A stretch of DNA of 64,000 nucleotides, taken from contig NC_132901.1 of the NCBI RefSeq assembly GCF_030463535.1, positions 751,980 to 815,979 of the forward strand, given 5' to 3'. The notes under the pieces were generated by a model. That model was given only the letters and a program-made list of their open reading frames with translations, had not been told where the DNA came from and ran no database searches. Positions 18,928 through 62,970 of this stretch are shown piece after piece (position 1 is the stretch's first letter; each line of letters opens with the position of its first letter). The DNA is from Salminus brasiliensis. Lineage: Eukaryota; Chordata; Actinopteri; Characiformes; Bryconidae. A program made the translations under genes and the position numbers.

Positions 18928-21900
18928 GTTAATTATGTTATAACAATAATTATAACAGTTAAGTAATTAGTACTTAATTACTATATATTCTTGCAGCTGC
19001 TGATAAATCTGTGTAATAATTGCAGTAATTTCATTAATCATTTAATAATTTTATTATTAGTTGGTGACAGTGATGATTATTAATAATAATTTTTTTTTTG
19101 CTTCAGCTGCTGTTTGATATCAATGTAATAACAGTAGTCATATAATCATCCTCATGGCCATCATAAGAAAAAAAAACTATATTAAAATGTAATCATCTTT
19201 TTATTATTAGTAGTAGTAATAATGTAATTTATCATATTAATATTGTATTGCTACTTTTACTTTTTTATTTATTTATTTGCAGTAATAATGTAGTAATGTA
19301 ATAATAGTAGTATAATGGTATAATAATAATCCTCTTTATTATGATGATGTATGTTATCTACTTTTGCAACAACTACGATTATCAGTGTAGATTTGCTGTA
19401 ATAATAATAATAATAATAATACCTGTTTTTAATAGTAAGTAAATAAAATTAATAATGAATTAGTAAACACTAATAACAGTAAAAACAATCGTTGAGGTGA
19501 TTGTTGTTATTATGAATAATAATTTACTGCTACATATTTTTGGAATTGAGGTATGAGGGAACATTAAACATTAAAAGTTATTATTATTATTATTATTATT
19601 ATTGGTGACCTGCTGTTCATAATGTTTTATAGCTACATATTTTCACCACTGCTTTATGATATATTCATATATGAGTTATTTAAATACTACAGTGCTAGAA
19701 TAATACAGTGATATAATAATAAAGTAATAATCCGCATAATTCTGATGATATATGTAGATTGCATTTATTACACACATTACATAAAAAAATATATATATAT
19801 ATATGTATAATAAATGAATAATAATAGTCTATTTTAATGCGTATTATTATATGATATTAAACACAGAATAGTAATAATAATAATAATTATAACAATAGTA
19901 ATAGGTCTGGTCTGTTTCTGGGACAGTAATAGTAAGTAAAAGGTGGATCAGCAGACCCCCTCCACCAACATCCCCCCCACCCCCCCCCCAAAACACCACC
20001 CTCCCCCCTCCCAGTCCACTGTTTCACTCAATATCACTGCTGTTGAATTTCTCCTCAGCTGCTGGGGGTGGCGTTCCTGTCCGTGGCATTATGGGCCTGG
20101 AGTGAGAAGGTAACCAAACACACACACACACACTCCTCATCATACACACTGATCAGCCATATCATTAGCACCACCGCCAGTGAAAAGCACTGATTATCTT
20201 CATCTACAGTCGGTTCTTGAAGGGGGTGAAGGTGTTGAAGCCGAGCGTAAGAATCTGAGACACTTTGACCCGAACCAGACTGTGATGTTCTAGATAGACG
20301 ACTGGGTCAGAACATCTCCAGAACATCAGGCATTGATGCTCATGGAGACTTAACTTACAGGATCTGCTGCTGATGTTAGTTAGTCTTGGTGTCGGACACC
20401 ACAGCAGGACGCCAAGTGTCCTCGCCTCGACGGGTCAGAGCTGTTGTGGCGGCACGGGGGGGAATCTACTCAATATTAGGCAGGTGGTACTAATGTTATG
20501 GCTGATTAATGTATATATATATATTTCTAAAGTTATATGTCTCTATATTATAATAACATATAGGTACTGAAAGTCTGTATATATGTGACTCTCTCTCTCT
20601 CTCTCTCTCTCTCTCAGGGGGTTCTCTCTAATATCTCCTCCATCACTGACCTGGGGGGGTTCGACCCTGTCTGGCTGTTCCTGGTGGTCGGTGGGGTGAT
20701 GTTTGTGTTGGGATTTGCCGGCTGCATCGGAGCGCTTCGGGAAAATTCCTTCCTGCTTAAGTTTGTGAGTTTGTTTCCTGTGTGTGTGTGTGTGTGTGTG
20801 TGTGTGGTGGACGGAAGACTAAAGTTTTCCTGACAACACCTAGACAAAGACCGGCACTTCTAGGACAATGAGCTCTGGACGAATGGACCTTGAGTCTTGT
20901 CCTGATGATGTTTTTTTTACAGTAAGGGTCCATGAACGTCCATGAAGATCGAGCTTGTTTGGTGTCGTTCTGATGGTAGACGCTGTACTTTGACAGTCTA
21001 GGCTCGCTGTAGACTTCTTATTAGTGGACAGTGGAACAGCGGCTGATTTCTAACTGTTCTGAGATCTGTTCTGAGAACACCCCGACTCAGAGAGCTCTTT
21101 GGATCTGGCCATGGTGATCTTCATCCCTCACTTCAACCATCAAGAGCAGACCAAAAATTAGTCTCCTTGCGTGTTCAAGGTGGTATATAGTAACTTCAGG
21201 CTCCTGCAGATGGCGCTGCATGAGGATGATGGGGTTTATAAATACCTGTGGGATGTTTGACGGAACTCAGGCTTTGAGAAAAGTGCAGTGCAGTGCAGTG
21301 AGGGTCTCGTTGGGTGTGTCGAAAAGCAAAGAGTCGCAAAGCAGATACAGTTAATGGTTGGCTAAAAGGAGTGGCTGCAGTTGGGCGTAGCCAAAGGTGG
21401 TCATACGGGTCTACCAGCAGTTGCAGAAATCCCAGCCTACAGGAAATCCTCTTTATTCTACAGCAGACGTGAGCGAAGACCTCTTGTGAGCCACTCTGCT
21501 CCATATGTTGATGGTCTGCAGTTCCCTGTGGAGGGTTCTTTCAGAAGTTGGTGGTGAAGAACCTGCGCTGGCTTCTAGAAGCAGTTCTTGTCTGGAAGTG
21601 AAGCCGTTTTCAGTCACAAGCCGTGAACGTCAGTTTCATCTTTCGGACAGTTTTAAGGAGAATTTCCTGTAGGCTGGGATTTCTGCCACTGCTGGTAGAC
21701 CCGTATGACCGTATGCTTCCATACACCTGCAGATTCACCTCCTTCCTTCACACTGTGGTCTTTGGCCACGCCCAAATGCAGCCACTCCTTTTTTCCACAC
21801 ATCCAACGAGACCCTCACTGCACTATTCTCACAGCCCGAGTCCCGTCACACACCCCACAGGTATTTATAACCCCATCATCCTCATGCAGCACCATCTGCA

Positions 21901-22981
21901 GCAGTCAGGGGTTCAGCTCCACCCCCCTCCAACTTGCTTCTCTCACTCCCTTCCTTCGTCTCCTCCAGTTTTCCGTGTTCCTGGGGATAATATTTTTCCT
22001 GGAGCTGACCACTGGAGTTCTGGCCTTCGTCTTTAAAGACTGGATCAAAGATCAGCTCAAGTTCTTCATCAACAACAACATCAGAGCCTACAGAGACGAC
22101 ATCGACCTGCAGAACCTCATCGACTTCACACAGGAATACGTAAGAGCTTTCCTCCTTCGTTATTATTATGCATAGGTACCTACATACACCGGTCAGCCAT
22201 AACATTAGTACCACTGAGAGTGGCTTCGGTCAAGACGTGGGATCTACATATTAGGCAGCGAGTGAACAGTCAGGTCTTGAAGGCCAGGAGTTGAAAGCCG
22301 AGCGCAAGAATTCTAGACAATGACTGGGTTAGAGCATCTCCAAAACATCAGGCAGGTCATGTGAGGTGTTCTCTCCTGGGATGCAGTGGACAGTACCTAC
22401 CAAAAGTGCTCCAAGGAAGGACAACCTTGCATTATGGGTGCCTAAGGCTCAATGATGCTAACACAGCAGGACGCCTTCAGTGTCTGTGTCTCCAAGGGTC
22501 AGAACTGTTGTGGTGGCCCAAAGGGGGACCTATTCAATATTAGACAGGTGGTGCTAATGTTATGTAATGTTGTTGTTATATATCCCTATATTATAATAAC
22601 ATATAGGTACTGAAAGTCTGTATATATATATATATATATACACGTGTGTGTGTGTAGTGGGAGTGCTGTGGAGCGTTTGGGCCGGAGGACTGGAATCTGA
22701 ACATCTACTTTAACTGCACCGACACCAATCTGAGCCGGGAGAAATGTGGAGTCCCGTTTTCCTGCTGCACGAAGGACCCTGCTGTGAGTACACACACACA
22801 CACACACACATATACAGGGCCAGTGATTACATCACCAGTTCAGAATGTCGCTCCTTCTTCCAGAAGCCCGGAGAACAGAAACAGGGAGTGATCCGGATCT
22901 CCAGACTTAGCGCCGCCCAGAAAGACTCCACACTCAACAGCCTCGAGCTCCTCGAGTGTAAAAGCCTAATTAATCAGACCT

Positions 22982-24946: not shown

Positions 24947-27900
24947 GTGTGTGTGTGTGTGTACAGGTAGGTATAGAGGTCTGAAGTCTGACTTCTCTCT
25001 TTCTTCTCAAATCCTTTTCAGTCTGTTTACCTGATGAGCTGAACCCGTTGCACCCGCCGTCGACCAACGCAGCCTCATCTCGGTATCCAAGCAACCAGCG
25101 AGGAGCTTCATATTCATAATTGCATCCTTTTTTTGTTTTGTTTTCCTTCAAACATCGTTACCATGACAACAGTGACGACCCAGAGATTCTGTCACTTTCT
25201 TAAATACGCTGCAGAGCCTGGAATAGAGAGAGCGAGAGTCATCTCATGCCCGTTGCATAGACCGTTGTAAGACTGCAGTACATCCATCGGCCACAAGGTG
25301 CCGCAATTCTTTTTATTTACAGGAAACATCTGACGAGACCACGAATTGGCATGTAGTCGATGAGTCGAGACGAGTTTGGTGTCTGAACTTATTTGAGATA
25401 TTTCCACCATGCTGACTGATCTGGTACGAGCTTTCACCGCATGTTAAGTTAGCGTTAGCCTCGCGTTAGGCCACTACGAAGGAAGCAAGCAAGCATTGGA
25501 CACCAGACAAGTCTTGGCTGATCGACCATCTGATGGCTTGATCTAGTCTGGAATCACCTCCACCTGGCAACAGAACTCCGACCGAAGCCTTCCAACCGCA
25601 GCAATGCAACAAAGCCCAGGCGGTGTTCAACAACATCAACAATTCGACATTTTCATAGTTACGTTATTGCGCTAACTGGTCCCGAATAAGCTTGTTCAGC
25701 TCACCTGAAGCTACCTTAAAATTTACAACCTGAGAGTTAACCTGCAGATACACTCGTCCATGGTGCTGTTGTTCCAATTTCTGAACAGGGCTTTAAAACT
25801 ATCTTCAGAAAATCATCGGTCATCTCTCGCAGTCGTCGACTCGGCTTCACTTTCCGCGAAGTTCCGTCATCGTCATTATGAAGTGAGCTGTATATATGAG
25901 GTCATTTGTAAGCGCAGCATTTATTGTATTTTATTAGTTTGGTCTGGAAACAGTAGTTAGATATAAAATCAGTTGTGTAAATACACAGCGTCGTATTTCA
26001 GGTAGGGAAGGAGATGGCACTGCATGCGTACTGGAATAACATTAGATTTGAACATTATGTGTTGAATTTTAGAACTATATTCTTTTTGTTAATGGTAACG
26101 ATGAGCATATCAGCGTGGATTTGAATATTGAAACCGATGGCAGGGATGTGGCTGATCCAGGCATATTTTTATTGGGTCGGGTTTCGGCTATCTGAAGCCT
26201 GATCCAGTTCCGATCCTTTGTTTTTACCACTGTGCTCTAGCAGAGCGCCCTCTGGTGTGCTCTAGGCGCCGATTACGGACATTATTCCCAGTCCGTGGCG
26301 GTGAGGAGCGTTCTCAGAGCGTAACAGTGGTCCTAGAGCTGAGAAGATGTTTGCATATAAGAACATTCTTACGGAATTCTTCGTTTTTCGCCTAAAATCC
26401 TTCGTAATTTTTTTTTCCAAAGAATGTTTTTGAAAATCCGGCTGATGTTTGTATAAATAATATTTGAATAAGTCATTAAGAAATTCTCAAATATTCTCTT
26501 AAGAAATTTGTAGTTATCTTCTTAAGAAGTTGTTTTCTTATTTAGGCCGTTGTAACAGACTTTAATGCTGTATTTCACAACCGATTATAAACCTTGCCAA
26601 ATAACATTGTAATATTCCAATATTCCGGTAAATCCGTGCAGTAAACTGAGAAAAAGCAGAATCAAACTAAGCGTTCTAACGTTATTTGTAAACAAGAGCT
26701 AGAAGTAAATGTTCTTTATTTAGAAACGATTTAAACTGGTCATTTTAGAGTCTGACCTTCTGACCTCTTACAGTCTAAGAAGAGTGTGAGGGTTTCGTAA
26801 AGTTAAGAAAATAAGTACATATTTTTTTAGAGAATATCATTTATTCCTAATTTTTTCAGTTAAAGTTAAGAAGATCAAAATCAGAGAATTCTTGTTACCG
26901 CTCAGCAGACTAAGACGCTGACGCTATGGCTGGCGAGGATCTGCGAGTTTGAATCCTGGGTCAAGCTGCTTTTCCCCTCATCACTCCCATTATGAGGAAA
27001 ATACCTGGATCAGAATATCCCTAGCTATTGGTTCTAATGTAAGGTCTGACTGCAGCGTTTTCCACTAGAGCTCTTGGGGTCACTTGGTCCAGAAGCTCCA
27101 ATGCAGTTCTGAATGTCGGACAGATTCTGCTTTGAATGTCAAATGTATTTTAAAGTGTTATTCGCTAAGATTTAAATGCAATGCTAATGCTAATTTATAT
27201 CCTTTTCCATTGGGAATACTTTGCACAAGTTAGCTCATTTTATTAGCGTAAACTGACTTTTTGGAACAGGGAGTTGGGAGAGGAATGCAGAGTTCTGCTT
27301 TAATGCACATAAGAAAAAGTTACAGAAAGCTGCTTTAAGGTATCTAAAGTAAAAGTCAGAATTGCACCAGGAAGCAGTCAGGGTGCAAAATGCATTGTTC
27401 TAGAGCAATGACTGTAGAGAACATGGACGCCGTGGCTCTGTCCCCTTCTGTTCTGTAGAAATAAAGCCAGAATTGTCCGCTATGTTGTCAAATCTGCAAC
27501 CAGACTCTGTGCAAAAGAGACCAGAGGCGGAGCCAGAGTCGCCAACTCATTTGGAAGCCCTGCCCCCTTCTTCCAGACCAAGCCTCAGTGTCTCAGACCG
27601 TCTTCATTGAGCTTCCAGTGCAGAAGCAGAGCGGTTTCCCCCCTGGGTTCCCAGTTTGTCCGTTCGGTAAGTGGACGCTCCTCCATGTAATGACCAGAGA
27701 GGACGCCATGCAGGTCCACCATGCAGAGGACCGGCCTCTTCCAGCCAGGGCTGCCAGCCAATTGCTTAATTGCTAAGTGTAGCCCCACATTGTTACGATA
27801 GAGCAGAGTAAGAGGTTGAAAATGGGCCGATATCAGCATTTGGGAACACTGGAGATGAAAGACAATTTAGAGGAGGAAGATGAGATGGAAAAATGGGTGT

Positions 27901-29222
27901 GGCTATTTGTCATTGAAACATATGGGGGTGGGAGGAGCTCCAAATCATACTGCAACCAGCCAGCAGAGGCGCTAGACCTGTGGTTGCTTCACTTCTGAGA
28001 GATACTGCGCTGTCCATGTTTTCTACAGTCATGGTTCTAGAGTGGGTTCTCCACAAATTCTGTTGCTTTCTAAAGGCCTACTCACACTAGCGTTTATCAA
28101 AAATCCAATAACAAGTTTGTGAGCGAAATTACATCCACTTCAGATTGTGGTTCGCAATTTGGCTTGTTTGCTACCAACCAGCTCGGACAGTTTCTTCATT
28201 CTTACTACAGAATTGCTAACTTTAGCTAACATGCTAATTCACTGCAAAATTTCAGACTCGACAAAAGTGCTAGTTTTGTAATTAGACGTAAAAACTGTAA
28301 GCAGAAATGGGCGCAATTCTGTGAGAACTGAATTACACAACCGAATTCAGAGCGTGAGCTAATAGCACGACTGCTTTAGCTAAGTTGACTTCTGAAGGGC
28401 GGGGCTTTGTTAAGCAGCGCTTAATTTGACACAGCAATCAGAGGTGGTGTGGAGCTGAATTAGACGATTAGATGTTAGATGTTTACTTTTTTTTTTTTTA
28501 ACTCTTTATGGTTGGCGAGTTAACATGTTAAGTGACTGCAAACTGCCCCTAAATGAAGCATTTTTTAATTTGTTATCCTGCTTTTCCGATCTCACTTTTT
28601 TGATCAAGCGTAATTTTGTGGATGTCTAGTGTGACTGCAGCCCAACTGTGGACACGTTCAAATAATTGTCCTGATTTGTGAAAGCTTAGTTTAGTGATCT
28701 GTACTTTGTGTGAAGACCTCCTGTCAAAATGATGGTCTCTCAACCTGAAGAATTATAAACTTAAATGTTGGTGAAATTGTTACTTTAATTTTTTTTTAAG
28801 TACGTTTGCAGAAATTACATTTTGTTTGACCACTTTGTTGATTCTAACTTTAGTTACACTAAAATGTAGGTGTTTCCTTCTCCTGGAACATTACTAGTTT
28901 GTAGATACGAGGTTTTGTTTTGACGGTGAAAAGGTAACTTTAGCACAGTCAAGCCAAGCTGGTCAGTTGAAGTGTTTTGTAACTTTGCACTTTTTTTATT
29001 TTCACTTTTATTTTTACTCAGCTCAGCTCTTCATGTCCAAGTAACTGCACTCTGTCCCCTCTTGGTTTTTCAACACGATTGTCTAGCTAGTTATAAACTC
29101 CACACACATGTAGCTCATAGTGAAAGCTAATTCTCAAGCTCATTAGTCAGAATGTGTCGTTGCAGATTTTGAATATTTGTTTTGCATTTTGTGACTGAAA
29201 CCATATTTGTGCTGTCAGGTTA

Positions 29223-29542
29223 CAGCAGCTGTCAAATGTTTGGACTCTGGATCTGACTGAATGTATGTTTTTTCTCGTACAGAAATTATTAACCGAAAAC
29301 GTAATATTGAAATGCTTGACGTTTGTTTCTGGGAAGAATCTAAAATAGGATCTAACTATATCTATACTATACGTATTTGGTAGCTTTGATGTGTATATTA
29401 TCAGATAGATAGATAGGCTATGTGCATTTTATATAATTAGTTATCTAGAACAGTAAGAAATTTGGGGTCACTGTGGAAAATGGTAAAAAGACAGAAAAAA
29501 CTCTTAGTTGAGTAGGTGAGTCCAAACTTTTGACCAGTGCTG
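29223..29542. mobile_element. Short Tc1-like element with 25-bp inverted repeats
   Basis: The left end at 29223-29247 (cagcagctgtcaaatgtttg...) and right end at 29518-29542 (...caaacttttgaccagtgctg) are imperfect inverted repeats, each flanked by TA (29221-29222 and 29543-29544). This TA duplication is the Tc1/mariner signature. 320 bp, no transposase. It lies in the tspan5 3' UTR. Confidence 0.75.
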
Positions 29543-30009: not shown

Positions 30010-30930
30010 AAACATTCCATAGTCAGGTGTAATTCACTTTAATATTCACATAAAATTCACTTTTATATTTAAGTGTAATTCACGATTATATTCAAACACA
30101 AGATGCATTTTTATAAGTAGTGGAAATTCACTTTTATAAATAGTTGAAATTCACTTTTTTTTACGGAACTAAAATTCACTTTTATTCTGAACTGAAATTC
30201 ACTTTTATAAATAGTTGAAATTCACTTTTTTTTACGGAACTAAAATTCACTTTTATTCTGAACTGAAATTCACTTTTATAAGTAGTTGAAATTCACTTTT
30301 TTTACGGAACTAAAATTCACTTTTATGCTGAACTGAAATTCACTTTTATAAATAGTTGAAATTCACTTTTTTTTTACAGAACTAAAATTCATTTTTATAC
30401 TGAACTGAAATTCACTTTTATAAATAGTTGAAATTCACTTTTTTTTACGGAACTAAAATTCACTTTTATGCTGAACTGAAATTCACTTTTATAAATAGTT
30501 GAAATTCACTTTTTTTTACAGAACTAAAATTCATTTTTATACTGAACTGAAATTCACTTTTATAAATAATTGAAATTCACTTTTTTTTACAGAACTAAAA
30601 TTCATTTTTATACTGAACTGAAATTCACTTTTATAAATAGTTGAAATTCACTTTTTTTTACAGAACTAAAATTCATTTTTATACTGAACTGAAATTCACT
30701 TTTATAAATAGTTGAAATTCACTTTTTTTTACGGAACTAAAATTCACTTTTATGCTGAACTGAAATTCACTTTTATAAATAGTTGAAATTCACTTTTTTT
30801 TACAGAACTAAAATTCATTTTTATACTGAACTGAAATTCACTTTTATAAATAGTTGAAATTCACTTTTTTACGGAACAGAAATTCATTAAAATTCACCTT
30901 TTGATTCAGGACTAAATTCACATTTATTTG
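30010..30930 (+). repeat. 71-bp satellite of three TTCACTTTT subunits
   Basis: About 12 units. Each has three 23-25 bp subunits that start TTCACTTTT and end GTTGAAA, AACTAAAA or AACTGAAA. The first 120 bp and last 60 bp are degenerate. The array starts about 170 bp past the tspan5 poly(A) signal. Confidence 0.92.
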
Positions 30931-32025: not shown

Positions 32026-32298
32026 CTCATCTCCTGGCCACAGCATGACATCCACTCCTCACCGCTAGAACACTTCGCCTCCTCTCAGCCCTCCCACCTG
32101 CCCGCCTGTCTGCCGGCGCAGGAATGGTCGCTGTCTCAGCATTCTCTCACCACCTTGTCCCCATCCCACCCACCGAGTCTCACTTCGGTCAGCAGTACTC
32201 GCTCTCTAGTGTGATCACTCTCCGCAACATCAGGAGGATCAATCATTCTCTAAGATGCAGATCACTCCGTAACAACCACCCTGTAACCATCACTTCGT

Positions 32299-34387
32299 AT
32301 TAGAGCTTCATACTGGATATTAATGTTACAAGAGATTCATACTGGATATGAATGCTATTAGAGCTTCATACTGGATATTAATGCTATTAGAGCTTCATAC
32401 TGGATATTAATGCTATTAGAGCTTCATACTGGATATTATTGTTATTAGAGCTTCATACTGGATATTAATGTTATTAGAGCTTCATACTGGATATTAATGA
32501 TATTAGAGCTTCATACTGGATATTAATGTTATTAGAGTTTCATACTGGATATTAATGTTATTAGAGCTTCATACTGGATATTAATGATAGAACTTCATAC
32601 TGGATATTAATGTTATTAGAGCTTCATACTGGATATTAATGTTATTAGAGCTTCATACTGGATATTAATGTTACAAGAGATTCATACTGGATATGAATGC
32701 TATTAGAGCTTCATACTGGATATTAATGCTATTAGAGCTTCATACTGGATATTAATGCTATTAGAGCTTCATACTGGATATTATTGTTATTAGAGCTTCA
32801 TACTGGATATTAATGTTATTAGAGCTTCATACTGGATATTAATGATATTAGAGCTTCATACTGGATATTAATGTTATTAGAGTTTCATACTGGATATTAA
32901 TGTTATTAGAGCTTCATACTGGATATTAATGATAGAACTTCATACTGGATATTAATGTTATTAGAGCTTCATACTGGATATTAATGTTATTAGAGCTTCA
33001 TACTGGATATTAATGTTAGAACTTCATACTGGATATTAATGATATTAGAGCTTCATACTGGATATTAATGTTAGAACTTCATACTGGATATTAATGTTAT
33101 TAGAGCTTCATACTGGATATTAATGTTAGAACTTCATACTGGATATTAATGATATTAGAGCTTCATACTGGATATTAATGTTATTAGAACTTCATACTGG
33201 ATATTCATATTATTAGAGCTTCATACTGGATATTAATGTTATTAGAACTTCATACTGGATATTAATGTTATTAGAGCTTCATACTGGATATCAATGTTAC
33301 TAGAGCTTCATACTGGATATTAAAGTTATTAGAGCTTCATACTGGATATTAATGTTATTAGAGCTTCATACTGGATATTAATGTTAGAACTTCATACTGG
33401 ATATTAATGATATTAGAGCTTCATACTGGATATTAAAGTTATTAGAACTTCATACTGGATATTAATGTTATTAGAACTTCATACTGGATATTAATGCTAT
33501 TAGAGCTTCATACTGGATATTAATGTTATTAGAGCTTCATACTGGATATTAATGTTAGAACTTCATACTGGATATTAATGATATTAGAGCTTCATACTGG
33601 ATATTAAAGTTATTAGAGCTTCATACTGGATATTAATGTTATTAGAACTTCATACTGGATATTAATGCTATTAGAGCTTCATACTGGATATTAAAGTTAT
33701 TAGAGCTTCATACTGGATATTAATGTTATTAGAGCTTCATACTGGATATTAATGTTAGAACTTCATACTGGATATTAATGATATTAGAGCTTCATACTGG
33801 ATATTAAAGTTATTAGAACTTCATACTGGATATTAATGTTATTAGAACTTCATACTGGATATTAATGCTATTAGAGCTTCATACTGGATATTAATGTTAT
33901 TAGAACTTCATATTGGATATTAATGCTATTAGAACTTCATACTGGATATTAATGTTATTAGAGCTTCATACTGGATATTACTGTTATTAGAGCTTCATAC
34001 TGGATATTAAAGTTATTAGAACTTCATACTGGATATTAATGTTATTAGAGCTTCATACTGGATATTAAAGTTATTAGAACTTCATACTGGATATTAATGT
34101 TATTAGAGCTTCATACTGGATATTAATGCTATTAGAACTTCATACTGGATATTAAAGTTATTAGAGCTTCATACTGGATATTAATGTTATTAGAGCTTCA
34201 TACTGGATATTAATGTTATTAGAGCTTCATACTGGGTATTAATGTTATTAGAGTTTCATACTGGATATTAATGTTATTAGAGCTTCATACTGGATATTAA
34301 TGCTATTAGAACTTCATACTGGATATTAAAGTTATTAGAGCTTCACACTGGATATTAGTGTTATTAGAACTTCATACTGGATATGTT
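32299..34387 (+). repeat. 29-bp minisatellite, array 1
   Basis: About 72 units of 29 bp containing AGCTTCATACTGGATATTAA, with a 26-bp variant lacking one ATT (GTTAGAACTTC). Single-base variants recur. A 345-bp block is repeated: the rare agagattcat variant occurs at 32331 and 32676, and ggatattatt at 32431 and 32776. Confidence 0.97.
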
Positions 34388-56100: not shown

Positions 56101-57586
56101 TACGTCACGCAACCCTGCCTGCAGTCTGGCTAGCCTGGAACTGTAAAAGCCTCTTAGCTAACCTCATTTGATAAATCTAACTGGTTTGTTTGGGGTGCAA
56201 TGATTTCTATACAGTATCAGTAAATCTAGCATTTCCCATTCACGTTCAAGACTAAGCATTTTGCATTGTTTTGAGACGGGATAGGATTTACACTGGGTCC
56301 TGAGGAATCATTTTTCATAGGGGATACAGAAAATTACAAGCTGAATTCTCCTTTTGTTTGTGTATGTACTGAGTGTACTGAGCACTGTTGTGGTTTACCC
56401 TGCAGGTTGGTGAGACCATAGGCATCACAGAGGAGATCATGGGGCTGACCATCCTGGCTGCTGGAACCTCCATTCCTGATCTCATCACCTCAGTCATTGT
56501 GGCCAGAAAGGGTCTGGGGGACATGGCTGTTTCCAGCTCTGTGGGCTCCAACATCTTTGACATCACTGTGGGGTATGACATCACTCCTCCTCATCCTTCT
56601 CCTGTTCAACAGAAGTTCAACATTAATATCCAGTATGAAGTTCTAATAACATTAATATCCAGTATGAAGCTCTAATAGCATTAATATCCAGTATGAAGTT
56701 CTAATAACATTAATATCCAGTATGAAGCTCTAATAGCATTAATATCCAGTATGAAGTTCTAATAACATTAATATCCAGTATGAAGCTCTAATAGCATTAA
56801 TATCCAGTATGAAGCACTAATAACATTAATATCCAGTATGAAGCTCTAATAACATTAATATCCAGTATGAAGCTCTAATAGCATTAATATCCAGTATGAA
56901 GCTCTAATAACATTAATATCCAGTATGAAGCTCTAATAACATTAATATCCAGTATGAAGTTCTAATAACATTAATATCCAGTATGAAGCTCTAATAACAT
57001 TAATATCCAGTATGAAGCTCTAATATCATTAATATCCAGTATGAAGTTCTAATAACATTAATATCCAGTATGAAGTTCTAATAGCATTAATATCCAGTAT
57101 GAAGCACTAATAACATTAATATCCAGTATGAAGCTCTAATAACATTAATATCCAGTATGAAGCTCTAATAACATTAATATCCAGTATTAAGTTCTAATAC
57201 AATTATTATGAAGAATGAAGGTGGTCCTATTACTCAATACCACTATTGACATCAATATTACAAGTGTTTCCAAACTTTTGAACAGTACTGAATCCTGAAG
57301 GAACTGCTCACTGACCAGTGTCCTTTCTCTCCTCAGCTTGCCGTTTCCGTGGCTCCTGTATTCGTTGCTCCACGACATGAAGTCCGTCGTGGTCAGCAGT
57401 AATGGCCTTTTCTGCGCCATCGTGCTGCTCTTCCTCATGCTCCTCTTCGTCATCATGTCCATCGCCGTTTGCAAGTGGAGGATGAGCAAGCTGCTCGGCT
57501 TCCTCATGTTCATGCTCTACTTCGTCTTCCTGGTGGTCAGCGTCATGCTGGAGGACAAGGTCATCACCTGCCCCATTTCCGTCTGA
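41110..57586 (+). CDS. slc24a2: NCKX2, K+-dependent Na+/Ca2+ exchanger (complete)
   Basis: Nine coding exons: 41110-41982, 53147-53182, 53685-53793, 54007-54081, 54174-54247, 54711-54848, 55182-55271, 56406-56572 and 57337-57586 (TGA). Phases join; 1812 nt, 603 aa. N-terminal hydrophobic segment (about 38-56), extracellular sequon N85-A-S, alpha-1 repeat with [10 protein letters not shown] (Glu172), a hydrophilic cytosolic loop (about 280-415) with [20 protein letters not shown] and [13 protein letters not shown], then alpha-2 with [14 protein letters not shown] (Asp490). Both acidic residues match ion-binding positions of the family. The protein moves 4 Na+ in for 1 Ca2+ and 1 K+ out. The loop motifs and KASILHKIA indicate NCKX2 rather than the much longer NCKX1. 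Human NCKX2 is 661 aa; the 17-residue alternatively spliced loop segment is absent here. The start is chosen because an acceptor (40964) and leader precede it and the N-terminus aligns in length. Confidence 0.93.
42035..42098 (+). repeat. CCGCTGGTTCCCGGT tandem repeat
   Basis: Four to five units of 15 bp (GCTGGTTCCCGGTCC, later CCAGT variants), 53 bp into intron 1. Confidence 0.85.
42350..42575 (+). repeat. SINE-like repeat E, copy 1
   Basis: Shares ggaggcagtacgaaaagagg and the head ggggtggctcagcgatg with other fish SINE-like repeats. Related to 43345-43575 (gaaaaaagaggcagtggct). Confidence 0.6.
43345..43575 (+). repeat. SINE-like repeat E, copy 2
   Basis: The head gttccgagtggtccagtgga resembles a tRNA A-box region; the tail gaggcagtggctagcttcac matches copy 1 loosely. 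Confidence 0.55.
43661..43841. mobile_element. 181-bp MITE with long inverted repeats
   Basis: Left cagtggtttccaaccctggt and right accaaggttgggaaccactg are near-perfect inverted repeats. A common fish element type. No coding capacity. Confidence 0.8.
47165..47560 (+). repeat. Dispersed repeat family C, copy 2, with internal hairpin
   Basis: Shares the family C body. Gagaatctcaacta at 47318 and its inverse tagttgagattctcc at 47522, each with GATGAT or ATCATC runs, form inverted arms around it. Confidence 0.7.
48128..48505 (-). mobile_element. Family A element, copy 7 (both ends present)
   Basis: Starts gacaaaagtattgggacacc and ends gtgtccacaaatatgtggac; interior ctccacagctcaatgctggg. Confidence 0.75.
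49369..49748. mobile_element. MITE family B, copy 3 (slc24a2 intron 1)
   Basis: Left end gcagccataacattagc; right end gggctgatcagtgta. The interior shares cacagcaggac-type and agatgttct-type blocks in inverse order with 20143-20513. Confidence 0.6.
50440..50585 (+). repeat. Dispersed repeat G, copy 2
   Basis: Partner of 37820-37965 (shared ccattttggaga, gacttcc). Confidence 0.55.
52180..52660 (+). repeat. Dispersed repeat family C, copy 3
   Basis: Begins tctgtgagaagactttattc; contains the GATGAT run, aatagagaatctcaactaat and the family body. Lies in intron 1, about 490 bp before exon 2. Confidence 0.75.
53267..53425 (+). repeat. SINE-like repeat E fragment
   Basis: aggctcagcggcctaatgct followed by gccatgccgctttgcaatca and cagcagccggagtctgat resembles the head of copies at 42350 and 43345. 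It lies in the short intron 2 of slc24a2. Confidence 0.4.
54350..54648 (-). mobile_element. Family A element, copy 8
   Basis: In slc24a2 intron 5. Runs from ccaaaagtactggatggagc through ctccacagctcctcaatgct to gcaatgggtgcaacttaaag. Its outer tips are missing. Confidence 0.7.
56619..57198 (-). repeat. 29-bp minisatellite, array 2 (inverted), slc24a2 intron 8
   Basis: About 20 units of the same 29-bp repeat as 32299-34387 but in reverse orientation (reads TTAATATCCAGTATGAAGCT on +). It starts 47 bp after the exon 8 donor and fills most of the 764-bp intron. Confidence 0.97.
57264..57290 (-). mobile_element. Terminal inverted repeat bordering array 2
   Basis: The reverse complement begins CAGTACTGTTCAAAAGTTTG and matches the left end of the 59033-59806 element (CACTACTGTTCAAAAGCTTG) at 23 of 27 positions by eye. 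It marks one end of a related element containing array 2. The opposite end, near exon 8, is degenerate or lost. Confidence 0.65.
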
Positions 57587-58900: not shown

Positions 58901-59032
58901 GGCACCGGCCACGTCTTGGCTGATCAGCTCCGTTTAGGGTAAGAGGGGTGAAAAGGAGTAAATATGAATTTTCTTCAAACTATTTCTTTATGAACTAAGG
59001 CTCCTAGTACACTCCTGACTTTAATGCACATA

Positions 59033-59806
59033 CACTACTGTTCAAAAGCTTGGAATCACGTTATATATTCGCAATTATGACTTTTTAGGAACAATCTGGA
59101 GGTCAATTATGCACCAAACTGTGTTTTTTAATTATCTTCGATTCTGTTCTGAAGTGATAGAAAATATACTGAAATTATGGAATTATATCACACATGTTCA
59201 GTCCTTTAATTGCCTTACAAATTTAACCTCCACTCCACTGACATCCTGGATAATAATTTTATTGGTACACACTGGATATTAATGTTATTAGAACTTCAAT
59301 CCAGATGTTGATTTTATTGATATTATTCATTTAACTTATTCCGGACCTTAATTTTACTAGAACGTAATTCTGGATATTAACGTTATTAGAGCTTTATTCC
59401 AGATATTAATGTTATCAGAACTTAAATACATGGATGGTGATTCTATTAAAACTTAGTCTGGGCCAGAATTTTACTAGAATGTCAGTCTGGATATTAATTT
59501 TACTAGAACTTCATTCTGCATAATAATGTTATTAGAGATACAATCCAGATGTTGATTTTATTATTTATGAACCAGAATTTTACAAGAACTTCATACTGGA
59601 TATTAATGTTATTAGAGCTTCATTTTCGAATAATCTAGTTTCAGACTCTTAGATTTTTTCTAAAATCGACAGCCTCCCACAGATGATCTGAAAGCAGTGA
59701 CGTTACACAGGACTGACGGTATGGTCGTTTCATACAGTGGTATAACGCAACCAGACTGATTCTTACATTATCTAAAACAGTGATTCCAAACTTTTGAGCG
59801 GTAGCG
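59033..59806. mobile_element. Tc1-like element with degenerate minisatellite interior
   Basis: Inverted repeats at 59033-59059 (cactactgttcaaaagcttg...) and 59780-59806 (...aaacttttgagcggtagcg), flanked by TA on both sides (59031-59032, 59807-59808). The interior 59240-59640 consists of degenerate units resembling the 29-bp minisatellite (for example ggatattaatgttattagaa, tcattctgcataataatgtt). No transposase frame. Confidence 0.75.
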
Positions 59807-60076
59807 TACATAACGAGCCGCACTTCCTCTACAACTGGTTGAGTGTGTGTGTGTGTGTGAGGTCAGGTACTGGCATGGTATCTTTAGATCCAATCCAGGA
59901 TTCAGAAGATCACTCTTTCTGCTGTTCAGAATTCAAAGACCAAACACAGACTGGACGGCTGATCCAATCACAGCCTTCATGAGCTTCTACTGTCTAATTT
60001 CACTCTTTCTCTCAGACACATGCTCTTCCTTCCCGTCCGTCATTTTTATATGTACGATAGGTGCATTTTCATCTTC

Positions 60077-60548: not shown

Positions 60549-62970
60549 TTTATTAGAGCTTCATACTGGATATTAATGCTATTAGAACTTCATACTGGAT
60601 ATTAATGTTATTAGAGCTTCATACTGGATATGAATGTAATTAGAGCTTCATACTGGATATGAATGCTATTAGAGCTTCATACTGGATATTAATGGTATTA
60701 GAGCTTCATACTGGATATTAATGTTATTAGAACTTCATACTGGATATTAATGATATTAGAGCTTCATACTGGATATTAATGTTATTAGAACTTCATGCTG
60801 GATATTAATGTTTTAGAGCTTCATACTGGATATTAATGTTATTAGAGCTTCATACTGGATATTAATGTTATTAGAGCTTCATACTGGATATTAATGTTAT
60901 TAGAACCTCATGCTGGATATTAATGTTTTAGAGCTTCATACTGGATATTAATGTTATTAGAGCTTCATACTGGATATTAATGTTATTAGAACCTCATGCT
61001 GGATATTAATGTTTTAGAGCTTCATACTGGATATTAATGTTATTAGAACCTCATGCTGGATATTAATGTTATAGAGCTTCATACTGGATATTAATGTTAT
61101 TAGAGCTTCATACTGGATATTAATGTTATTAGAACCTCATGCTGGATATTAATGTTTTAGAGCTTCATACTGGATATTAATGTTATTAGAACCTCATGCT
61201 GGATATTAATGTTTTAGAGCTTCATACTGGATATTAATGTTATTAGAACTTCATACTGGATATGAATGCTATTAGAGCTTCATACTGGATATGAATGCTA
61301 TTAGAGATTCATACTGGATATGAATGCTATTAGAGCTTCATACTGGATATGAATGTTATTAGAACTTCATACTGGATATTAATGTTATTAGAGCTTCATA
61401 CTGGATATGAATGTAATTAGAGCTTCATACTGGATATGAATGTAATTAGAGCTTCATACTGGATATGAATGCTATTAGAGCTTCATACTGGATATTAATG
61501 GTATTAGAGCTTCATACTGGATATTAATGTTATTAGAACTTCATACTGGATATTAATGTTATTAGAGCTTCATACTGGATATTAATGTTATTAGAGCTTC
61601 ATACTGGATATTAATATTATTAGAACTTCATACTGGATATTAATGTTATTAGAACTTCATACTGGATATTAATGATATTAGAGCTTCATACTGGGTATTA
61701 ATGTTATTAGAACTTCATACTGGATATTAATGTTATTAGAGCTTCATACTGGATATGAATGTAATTAGAGCTTCATACTGGATATTAATGCCATTAGAGC
61801 TTCATACTGGATATTAATGCCATTAGAACTTCATACTGGATATTAATGCCATTAGAACTTCATACTGGATATTAATGTTATTAGAACTTCATACTGGATA
61901 TTAATGATATTAGAGCTTCATACTGGATATTAATGTTATTAGAACTTCATACTGGATATTAATGCCATTAGAACTTCATACTGGATATTAATGTTATTAG
62001 AACTTCATACTGGATATTAATGATATTAGAGCTTCATACTGGGTATTAATGTTATTAGAACTTCATACTGGATATTAATGTTATTAGAGCTTCATACTGG
62101 ATATTAATGTTATTAGAGCTTCATACTGGATATGAATGTAATTAGAGCTTCATACTGGATATGAATGCCATTAGAACTTCATACTGGATATTAATGTTAT
62201 TAGAACTTCATACTGGATATTAACGTAATTAGAGCTTCATACTGGATATTAACGTAATTAGAGCTTCATACTGGATATTAACGTAATTAGAACTTCATAC
62301 TGGATATTAATGATATTAGAGCTTCATACTGGGTATTAATGTTATTAGAACTTCATACTGGATATTAATGTTATTAGAGCTTCATACTGGATATGAATGT
62401 AATTAGAGCTTCATACTGGATATTAATGCCATTAGAGCTTCATACTGGATATTAATGCCATTAGAACTTCATACTGGATATTAATGCCATTAGAACTTCA
62501 TACTGGATATTAATGTTATTAGAACTTCATACTGGATATTAATGATATTAGAGCTTCATACTGGGTATTAATGTTATTAGAACTTCATACTGGATATTAA
62601 TGCCATTAGAACTTCATACTGGATATTAATGTTATTAGAACTTCATACTGGATATTAATGATATTAGAGCTTCATACTGGGTATTAATGTTATTAGAACT
62701 TCATACTGGATATTAATGTTATTAGAGCTTCATACTGGATATTAATGTTATTAGAGCTTCATACTGGATATGAATGTAATTAGAGCTTCATACTGGATAT
62801 GAATGCCATTAGAACTTCATACTGGATATGAATGCCATTAGAACTTCATACTGGATATTAATGTTATTAGAACTTCATACTGGATATTAACGTAATTAGA
62901 GCTTCATACTGGATATTAACGTAATTAGAGCTTCATACTGGATATTAATGTAATTAGAGCTTCATACTCT
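60549..62970 (+). repeat. 29-bp minisatellite, array 3
   Basis: About 83 units, same strand as array 1, with array-specific variants (tgccattagaactt, taacgtaattag, actgggtatt, tcatgctgg). Variants recur at regular distances, showing multi-unit duplication. It ends at a TTAGC-rich unique sequence. Confidence 0.97.

Follow-up and report, generated by a model that had tools for sequence, protein, structure and literature searches.

Putative Tc1/mariner-type elements enclosing a 29-bp minisatellite that also forms free arrays in the Salminus brasiliensis genome

We analyzed a 64,000-nucleotide stretch of the Salminus brasiliensis genome (hereafter, the window), located 0.75–0.82 Mb from the start of its contig in an assembly of 1.07 Gb, and found at positions 59033–59806 of the forward strand a 774-bp element with inverted ends, TA on both sides and an interior of diverged 29-bp minisatellite units. 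The same arrangement of TA, end, expanded array, end and TA was found at three other sites of the genome (L035, L041 and L058). Judged from the sequences, old nonautonomous elements of Tc1/mariner type probably took up, or at one time contained, a minisatellite that then expanded or decayed within them, and the repeat also exists outside. In the samples read, enclosed arrays were far rarer than either empty ends or free arrays, and the type of an array follows its position; on these grounds, capture or hitchhiking of the repeat appears more likely than its birth inside the element.

The two ends of the window element, 59033–59059 on the forward and 59780–59806 on the reverse strand, are identical at 23 of 27 positions in inverted orientation and are flanked by TA target-site duplications at 59031–59032 and 59807–59808, which bears out the inverted repeats with TA flanks of the original prediction. 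A 20-base end pattern with up to three mismatches matched four sites in the window against 0.03 expected from shuffled sequences, and a 29-base pattern of TA and end, with the same tolerance, matched 332 sites in the genome against none for the reversed pattern; a chance inverted repeat was rejected on these counts. Both the many copies of the terminal inverted repeat and the TA target-site duplications, the latter present in the window element and in L035, L041 and L058, are features of Tc1/mariner elements. Given the TA target, the length of the ends (~29 bp) and a resemblance to the ends of fish Tc1-like elements, we take the window element to be of Tc1/mariner type, and its sequence is that of an old, immobile and nonautonomous copy. 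Inside the ends lie a left arm of about 182 bp (59060–59245) and a right arm of about 156 bp (59625–59779), with the alignment to the repeat unit stopping at 59651. A genome search with 59033–59245 returned the query as the sole match; the known end copies were missed too, so the result excludes close full-length relatives only.

Between the arms lie 13 diverged 29-bp units (59246–59624, forward strand). The region 59242–59651 scored 170 against the cyclic 29-bp consensus, while 100 dinucleotide shuffles had a mean of 16 and a maximum of 38, and no 300-bp piece of the window that lay outside the element and clear of the three clean arrays scored above 30. The units lie 1 to 12 of 29 bases from the consensus, with a mean divergence of 23–24%, and their divergence is more uneven than a single decay rate would give (P = 0.0014, or P = 0.0034 with the units aligned one by one). 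Because units four apart share deviations (18 of 20,000 permutations, and 144 of 20,000 after unit-by-unit realignment) and TRF found a period of 117 bp, the interior looks like an A-B-C-D higher-order repeat of four units. The distances of the units were first taken from a single running alignment that flattered unit 59272; the unit-by-unit repeat gave the same conclusions with a weaker periodicity. In the unit-by-unit alignment, units 59596, 59272 and 59370 are only 1, 3 and 3 bases, respectively, from the consensus of the arrays.

The 29-bp unit forms three arrays in the window. Those at 32298–34384 (~73 units) and 60550–62968 (~84 units), both on the forward strand, have no end detected at their edges; judged by eye, the first units of the former (32298–33000) seem to recur as a block of roughly 12. 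The third array, of about 21 units on the reverse strand (56619–57220), lies in the intron 56573–57336 of a gene of the Na/Ca-exchanger family. The exons flanking this intron match consecutive parts of the exchanger domain with E-values of 3e-17 and 3e-5, the second being just under Pfam's cut-off, and the original prediction names the gene slc24a2. The terminal repeat of the same family that was predicted to border the intron array is present at 57264–57290 on the reverse strand, matching the left end of the window element at 24 of 27 positions. At the other edge of the array, a weak end-like 14-mer on the forward strand (56598–56611, 12 of 14 positions) is suggestive only, its score being equalled by 1.67% of 45-bp background pieces, and the dinucleotides adjoining both end-like sites are not TA. 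Removing the stretch between the clear and the weak end leaves 71 bp of the 764-bp intron.

The interior of the window element is both close to and distinct from these arrays. Unit 59596, its last full unit, is the nearest or tied nearest for 174 of the 175 full units of the window arrays, and the 39 bp at 59585–59623, comprising this unit and its upstream junction, are identical to sequence in all three arrays. However, 9 of the 12 full interior units end in T (unit by unit; 8 of 13 in the running alignment), compared with 0 of the 175 array units, and at this diagnostic base the interior is unlike the window arrays but like those lying in chromosome interiors. On the last base, therefore, the interior does not seem to have decayed from the local arrays, and it is not demonstrably their direct parent either. 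The comparison of rare variants common to the interior and the window arrays gave no clear signal (Fisher P = 0.07).

Drawing on 100 of the 332 end sites, we read 50 for 1.3–1.5 kb inward (L010–L039 and L071–L090), and 49 of them were readable; three further sites of the 100 belong to known elements or the intron array. Across the 50 loci, the end sequence is conserved over ~29–30 bp and little beyond, and at seven of them a partner end with TA behind it lies in the 1.3–1.5 kb read. The window copy apart, 47 of the 49 readable copies contain no 29-bp units inward of the end, and the other two, L033 (the same locus as L058) and L035, enclose an expanded array between two ends with TA outside. 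The original prediction had expected many copies with 3–15 degenerate units; none of the 49 other readable copies was of this kind, leaving the window copy as the only one. Among the 50 sites read, the pattern expected of a transposon-seeded satellite, with many copies holding few units and a minority expanded, was thus not seen. Units outside the end occurred at 2 of 30 sites (L010–L039), weakly at L034 and strongly at L031, where a 29-bp array (positions 1501–2441 of the locus) sits just outside, not inside, an end with TA.

Among the three elements whose arrays are expanded, L035 was reached by way of its end. L041 and L058 were taken from candidates ranked solely on how well they matched the repeat interior (query positions 210–602), although the query contained the ends. 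The number of enclosed units ranges from 13 in the window element through ~18 in L058 and ~27 in L035 to ~42 in L041, with element lengths of 774, 929, 1184 and 1391 bp, respectively; an array of variable length thus lies between ends with a target duplication at several loci, as in the miDNA4 elements discussed below. The paired ends are identical at 23 (window), 22 (L035), 19 (L041) and 21 (L058) of 27 positions, and such low identity suggests old insertions. Three elements have long arms of similar lengths (left, 182, 180 and 163 bp; right, 156, 144 and 177 bp), a hint of descent from a single ancestor and hence of a single origin followed by spread; L041, with arms of 44 and 79 bp, is outside this pattern. 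At the sequence level, there is a weak alignment between the left arm of the window element and that of L035, with 7 of 1,000 shuffles reaching the global score in what was the best of 21 comparisons, and one pair of the cross-side control reached 10 of 1,000 in local score. None of the other same-side pairs aligned, and with a single weak pair the homology of the arms is not established. The left arm of L035 had 18 matches in the genome, of which the 17 others fall within its first 48 bp, save one extending to 73; beyond ~47 bp, this was the only second copy found for the left arm of either L035 or the window element, for which the search had missed known ends.

From the repeat side, 39 of 639 candidates were scored, and we grouped the resulting matches into 37 array loci, which are thus those most similar to the window interior; 30 of them were taken with flanks and seven as edges only. 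About 69 of the 74 array edges were readable (one edge each was hidden at L061, L067, L069, L091 and L102), some with flanks shorter than 350 bp. An inward-facing end matching at 18 or more of 27 positions was found within 350 bp at 6 of the 37 loci, and no wrong-way end reached that score at any of them. Both ends with TA were present at L041 and L058, and single inward ends at L045, with TA, and at L047, L062 and L096, without it. With a uniform scatter, 0.003 ends with up to three mismatches would be expected near the edges of the 30 loci, and the finding of two, at L041 and L058, makes the link between ends and arrays real. Nevertheless, it covers a minority of the arrays: 31 of the 37 loci have no inward end of at least 18 of 27 within 350 bp of a readable edge. 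By the test set in the original prediction, the genome thus gives a mixed answer, with expanded arrays between ends at three other sites and no such end at most array loci. Free arrays, which are also seen with satellite-carrying MITEs, make up these 31 loci and two of the three window arrays. With the threshold lowered to 17 of 27 and L041 and L058 left out, eight inward against two wrong-way edges among the 30 loci carried an end, a surplus of the kind that decayed ends would give. A gapped edge test of 24 loci was less clean, with 8 inward and 3 outward of 48 edges passing the 2% background level.

The arrays are concentrated near contig ends, which we took as chromosome ends. Counting the window arrays as one locus and excluding the window element, 21 of the 37 array loci lie within 4 Mb of a contig end, compared with 6.4 expected (P = 7e-8, although loci of one cluster are not independent), whereas 11 of 43 end sites do, compared with 8.2 expected (P = 0.18); these 43 sites are the head of the list of pattern sites minus two in the window. 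By the last base of the unit, 32 loci (L035, L040–L059, L061–L070 and the window arrays, with the seven edge-only loci outside the count) split into 20 of A-type and 12 of T-type. Within 6 Mb of a contig end lie 19 of the 20 A-type and none of the 12 T-type loci (P = 6e-8), a cut-off chosen among three: at 4 Mb the counts are 17 of 20 and 0 of 12, and a cut-off at 8 Mb takes in 20 of 20 A-type and 1 of 12 T-type loci. Such a split by distance to the contig end recurs across many chromosomes and points to an exchange of sequence among their ends. The expanded enclosed arrays follow their neighborhood, L041 being T-type in an interior and L035 and L058 A-type near contig ends; this would be expected if the region, and not the element, determined what an array contains. 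The window element is unlike its neighbors, being mostly T-type though near a contig end, so three of the four enclosed arrays match their surroundings.

In the reading that we consider the most probable, elements with these ends would have acquired the tandem repeat, or descended from one that had, and would owe their movement to a transposase that recognizes the ends. Once they were inserted, slippage or unequal exchange may have expanded and homogenized the repeat, as at L035, L041, L058 and perhaps the intron array, or the repeat may have decayed, as in the window copy. The free arrays favoring contig ends would have spread or grown by another route, or lost their ends beyond recognition.

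The original prediction had the minisatellite arise inside the transposon, be carried to new sites and then expand, with the free arrays as descendants whose ends have decayed. The expanded arrays between ends at L035, L041 and L058 speak for this reading, and so do the intron array with its clear and its weak end, the bounded stretch making up nearly the whole intron, and the closeness of unit 59596 and the 39-bp segment to the window arrays. The similar arm lengths and the surplus of weak inward ends keep this reading alive. Birth and carriage are nonetheless disfavored by the near-universal emptiness of the readable end copies and the absence of copies with few degenerate units among them, by the many arrays without ends, by the T that ends most interior units and no local array unit, by the crowding of arrays but not of end sites toward contig ends, and by the shortness of the L035 left arm segment that has other copies. 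We therefore regard an origin inside the transposon as rather doubtful. A bolder form, in which one ancestral TA-inserting element with arms of ~150–180 bp and a four-unit repeat seeded the minisatellite genome-wide, most of the descendant arrays outlived their ends, and homogenization of arrays on different chromosomes according to position then produced an A-type near chromosome ends and a T-type in interiors, would be unlikely.

Alternatively, the interior could have been copied from the local arrays and then have decayed, the nearby array at a distance of 0.7 kb being one possible source by insertion or conversion. The original prediction was correct in seeing degenerate units of the local 29-bp repeat here, and the unit common to both and the three interior units closest to the array consensus are compatible with such a copy. 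Uniform decay of a homogeneous array was rejected, however: in addition to the uneven divergence of the units and their four-unit periodicity, simulated uniform decay kept an exact 39-bp match in 28 of 200 runs at 15%, 3 of 200 at 20% and 0 of 200 at 25% divergence. With the last-base state also unlike that of the local arrays, a local copy appears very improbable. It is hardly credible that chance, or the coincidental insertion of two solo ends next to an array, produced the inverted ends around the repeats in place of a single element, for although few end sites have a partner and the L031 array sits outside an end, in four cases both ends face inward with TA on both outer sides, and the ends near array edges exceed the 0.003 expected at 30 loci, with no wrong-way counterparts of 18 of 27 or better at the 37.

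Capture of a repeat by a short-ended transposon, as favored here, has been proposed before. Transposons holding a satellite are already known, and the present case is a further member of the kind. The closest is a satellite-bearing Tc1/mariner MITE of Xenopus tropicalis, miDNA4 (Scalvenzi and Pollet 2014), which is described in two reviews (PMC12628747, PMC9659126); capture of a preexisting repeat, reportedly inferred by those authors, and a later loss of the ends have been proposed for it. Like the window element, miDNA4 is short-ended and nonautonomous, with a variable number of satellite units and arrays lacking ends elsewhere; unlike this MITE family, the elements studied here were seen to have only ~29–47 bp of their ends in common, and they carry a 29-bp minisatellite whose two subfamilies are linked to position. 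Xstir of Xenopus (Hikosaka and Kawahara 2004), as summarized in PMC12628747, coexists as a MITE, a tandem array and composite forms of one sequence, resembling the side-by-side element, array and composite forms of the present repeat. The Xstir repeat may derive from internal MITE sequence, whereas in the window element the alignment to the 29-bp unit ends at 59242 and 59651. In Tetris of Drosophila virilis, the internal tandem repeats of a DNA transposon (TIR-220) likewise also form long arrays (PMC4079207), but Tetris is a foldback element with ~220-bp repeats inside its inverted repeats. MITE elements of the Donax clam contain tandem repeats according to a title cited in PMC12628747. A text search of the library of papers with stretches of the 29-bp repeat and the ends found no paper, and titles and the beginnings of abstracts gave no case either; pattern scans of viral and bacterial collections returned nothing but one match in a bacterial MAG, which we took as chance. 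The present elements, with their expanded arrays enclosed by transposon ends, add a case to the few known satellite-holding transposons and give the question of capture versus birth a concrete system.

The window contains further repeats. A long inverted repeat at 21201–21904, with arms of ~255 bp that are 74% identical, looks like a foldback element. A second short-ended element lies at 27399–28041, its 30-bp inverted ends being 90% identical and TA flanking 27403–28037 on both sides. The stretch of ~95 bp at 29446–29540 is bordered at one side by a related end, GGTCAAAAGTTTGGACTCAC, and opposite it, as judged by eye, by a poorer match. Finally, a tandem array of 71/142-bp period occupies 30123–30886, with 94–96% matching.
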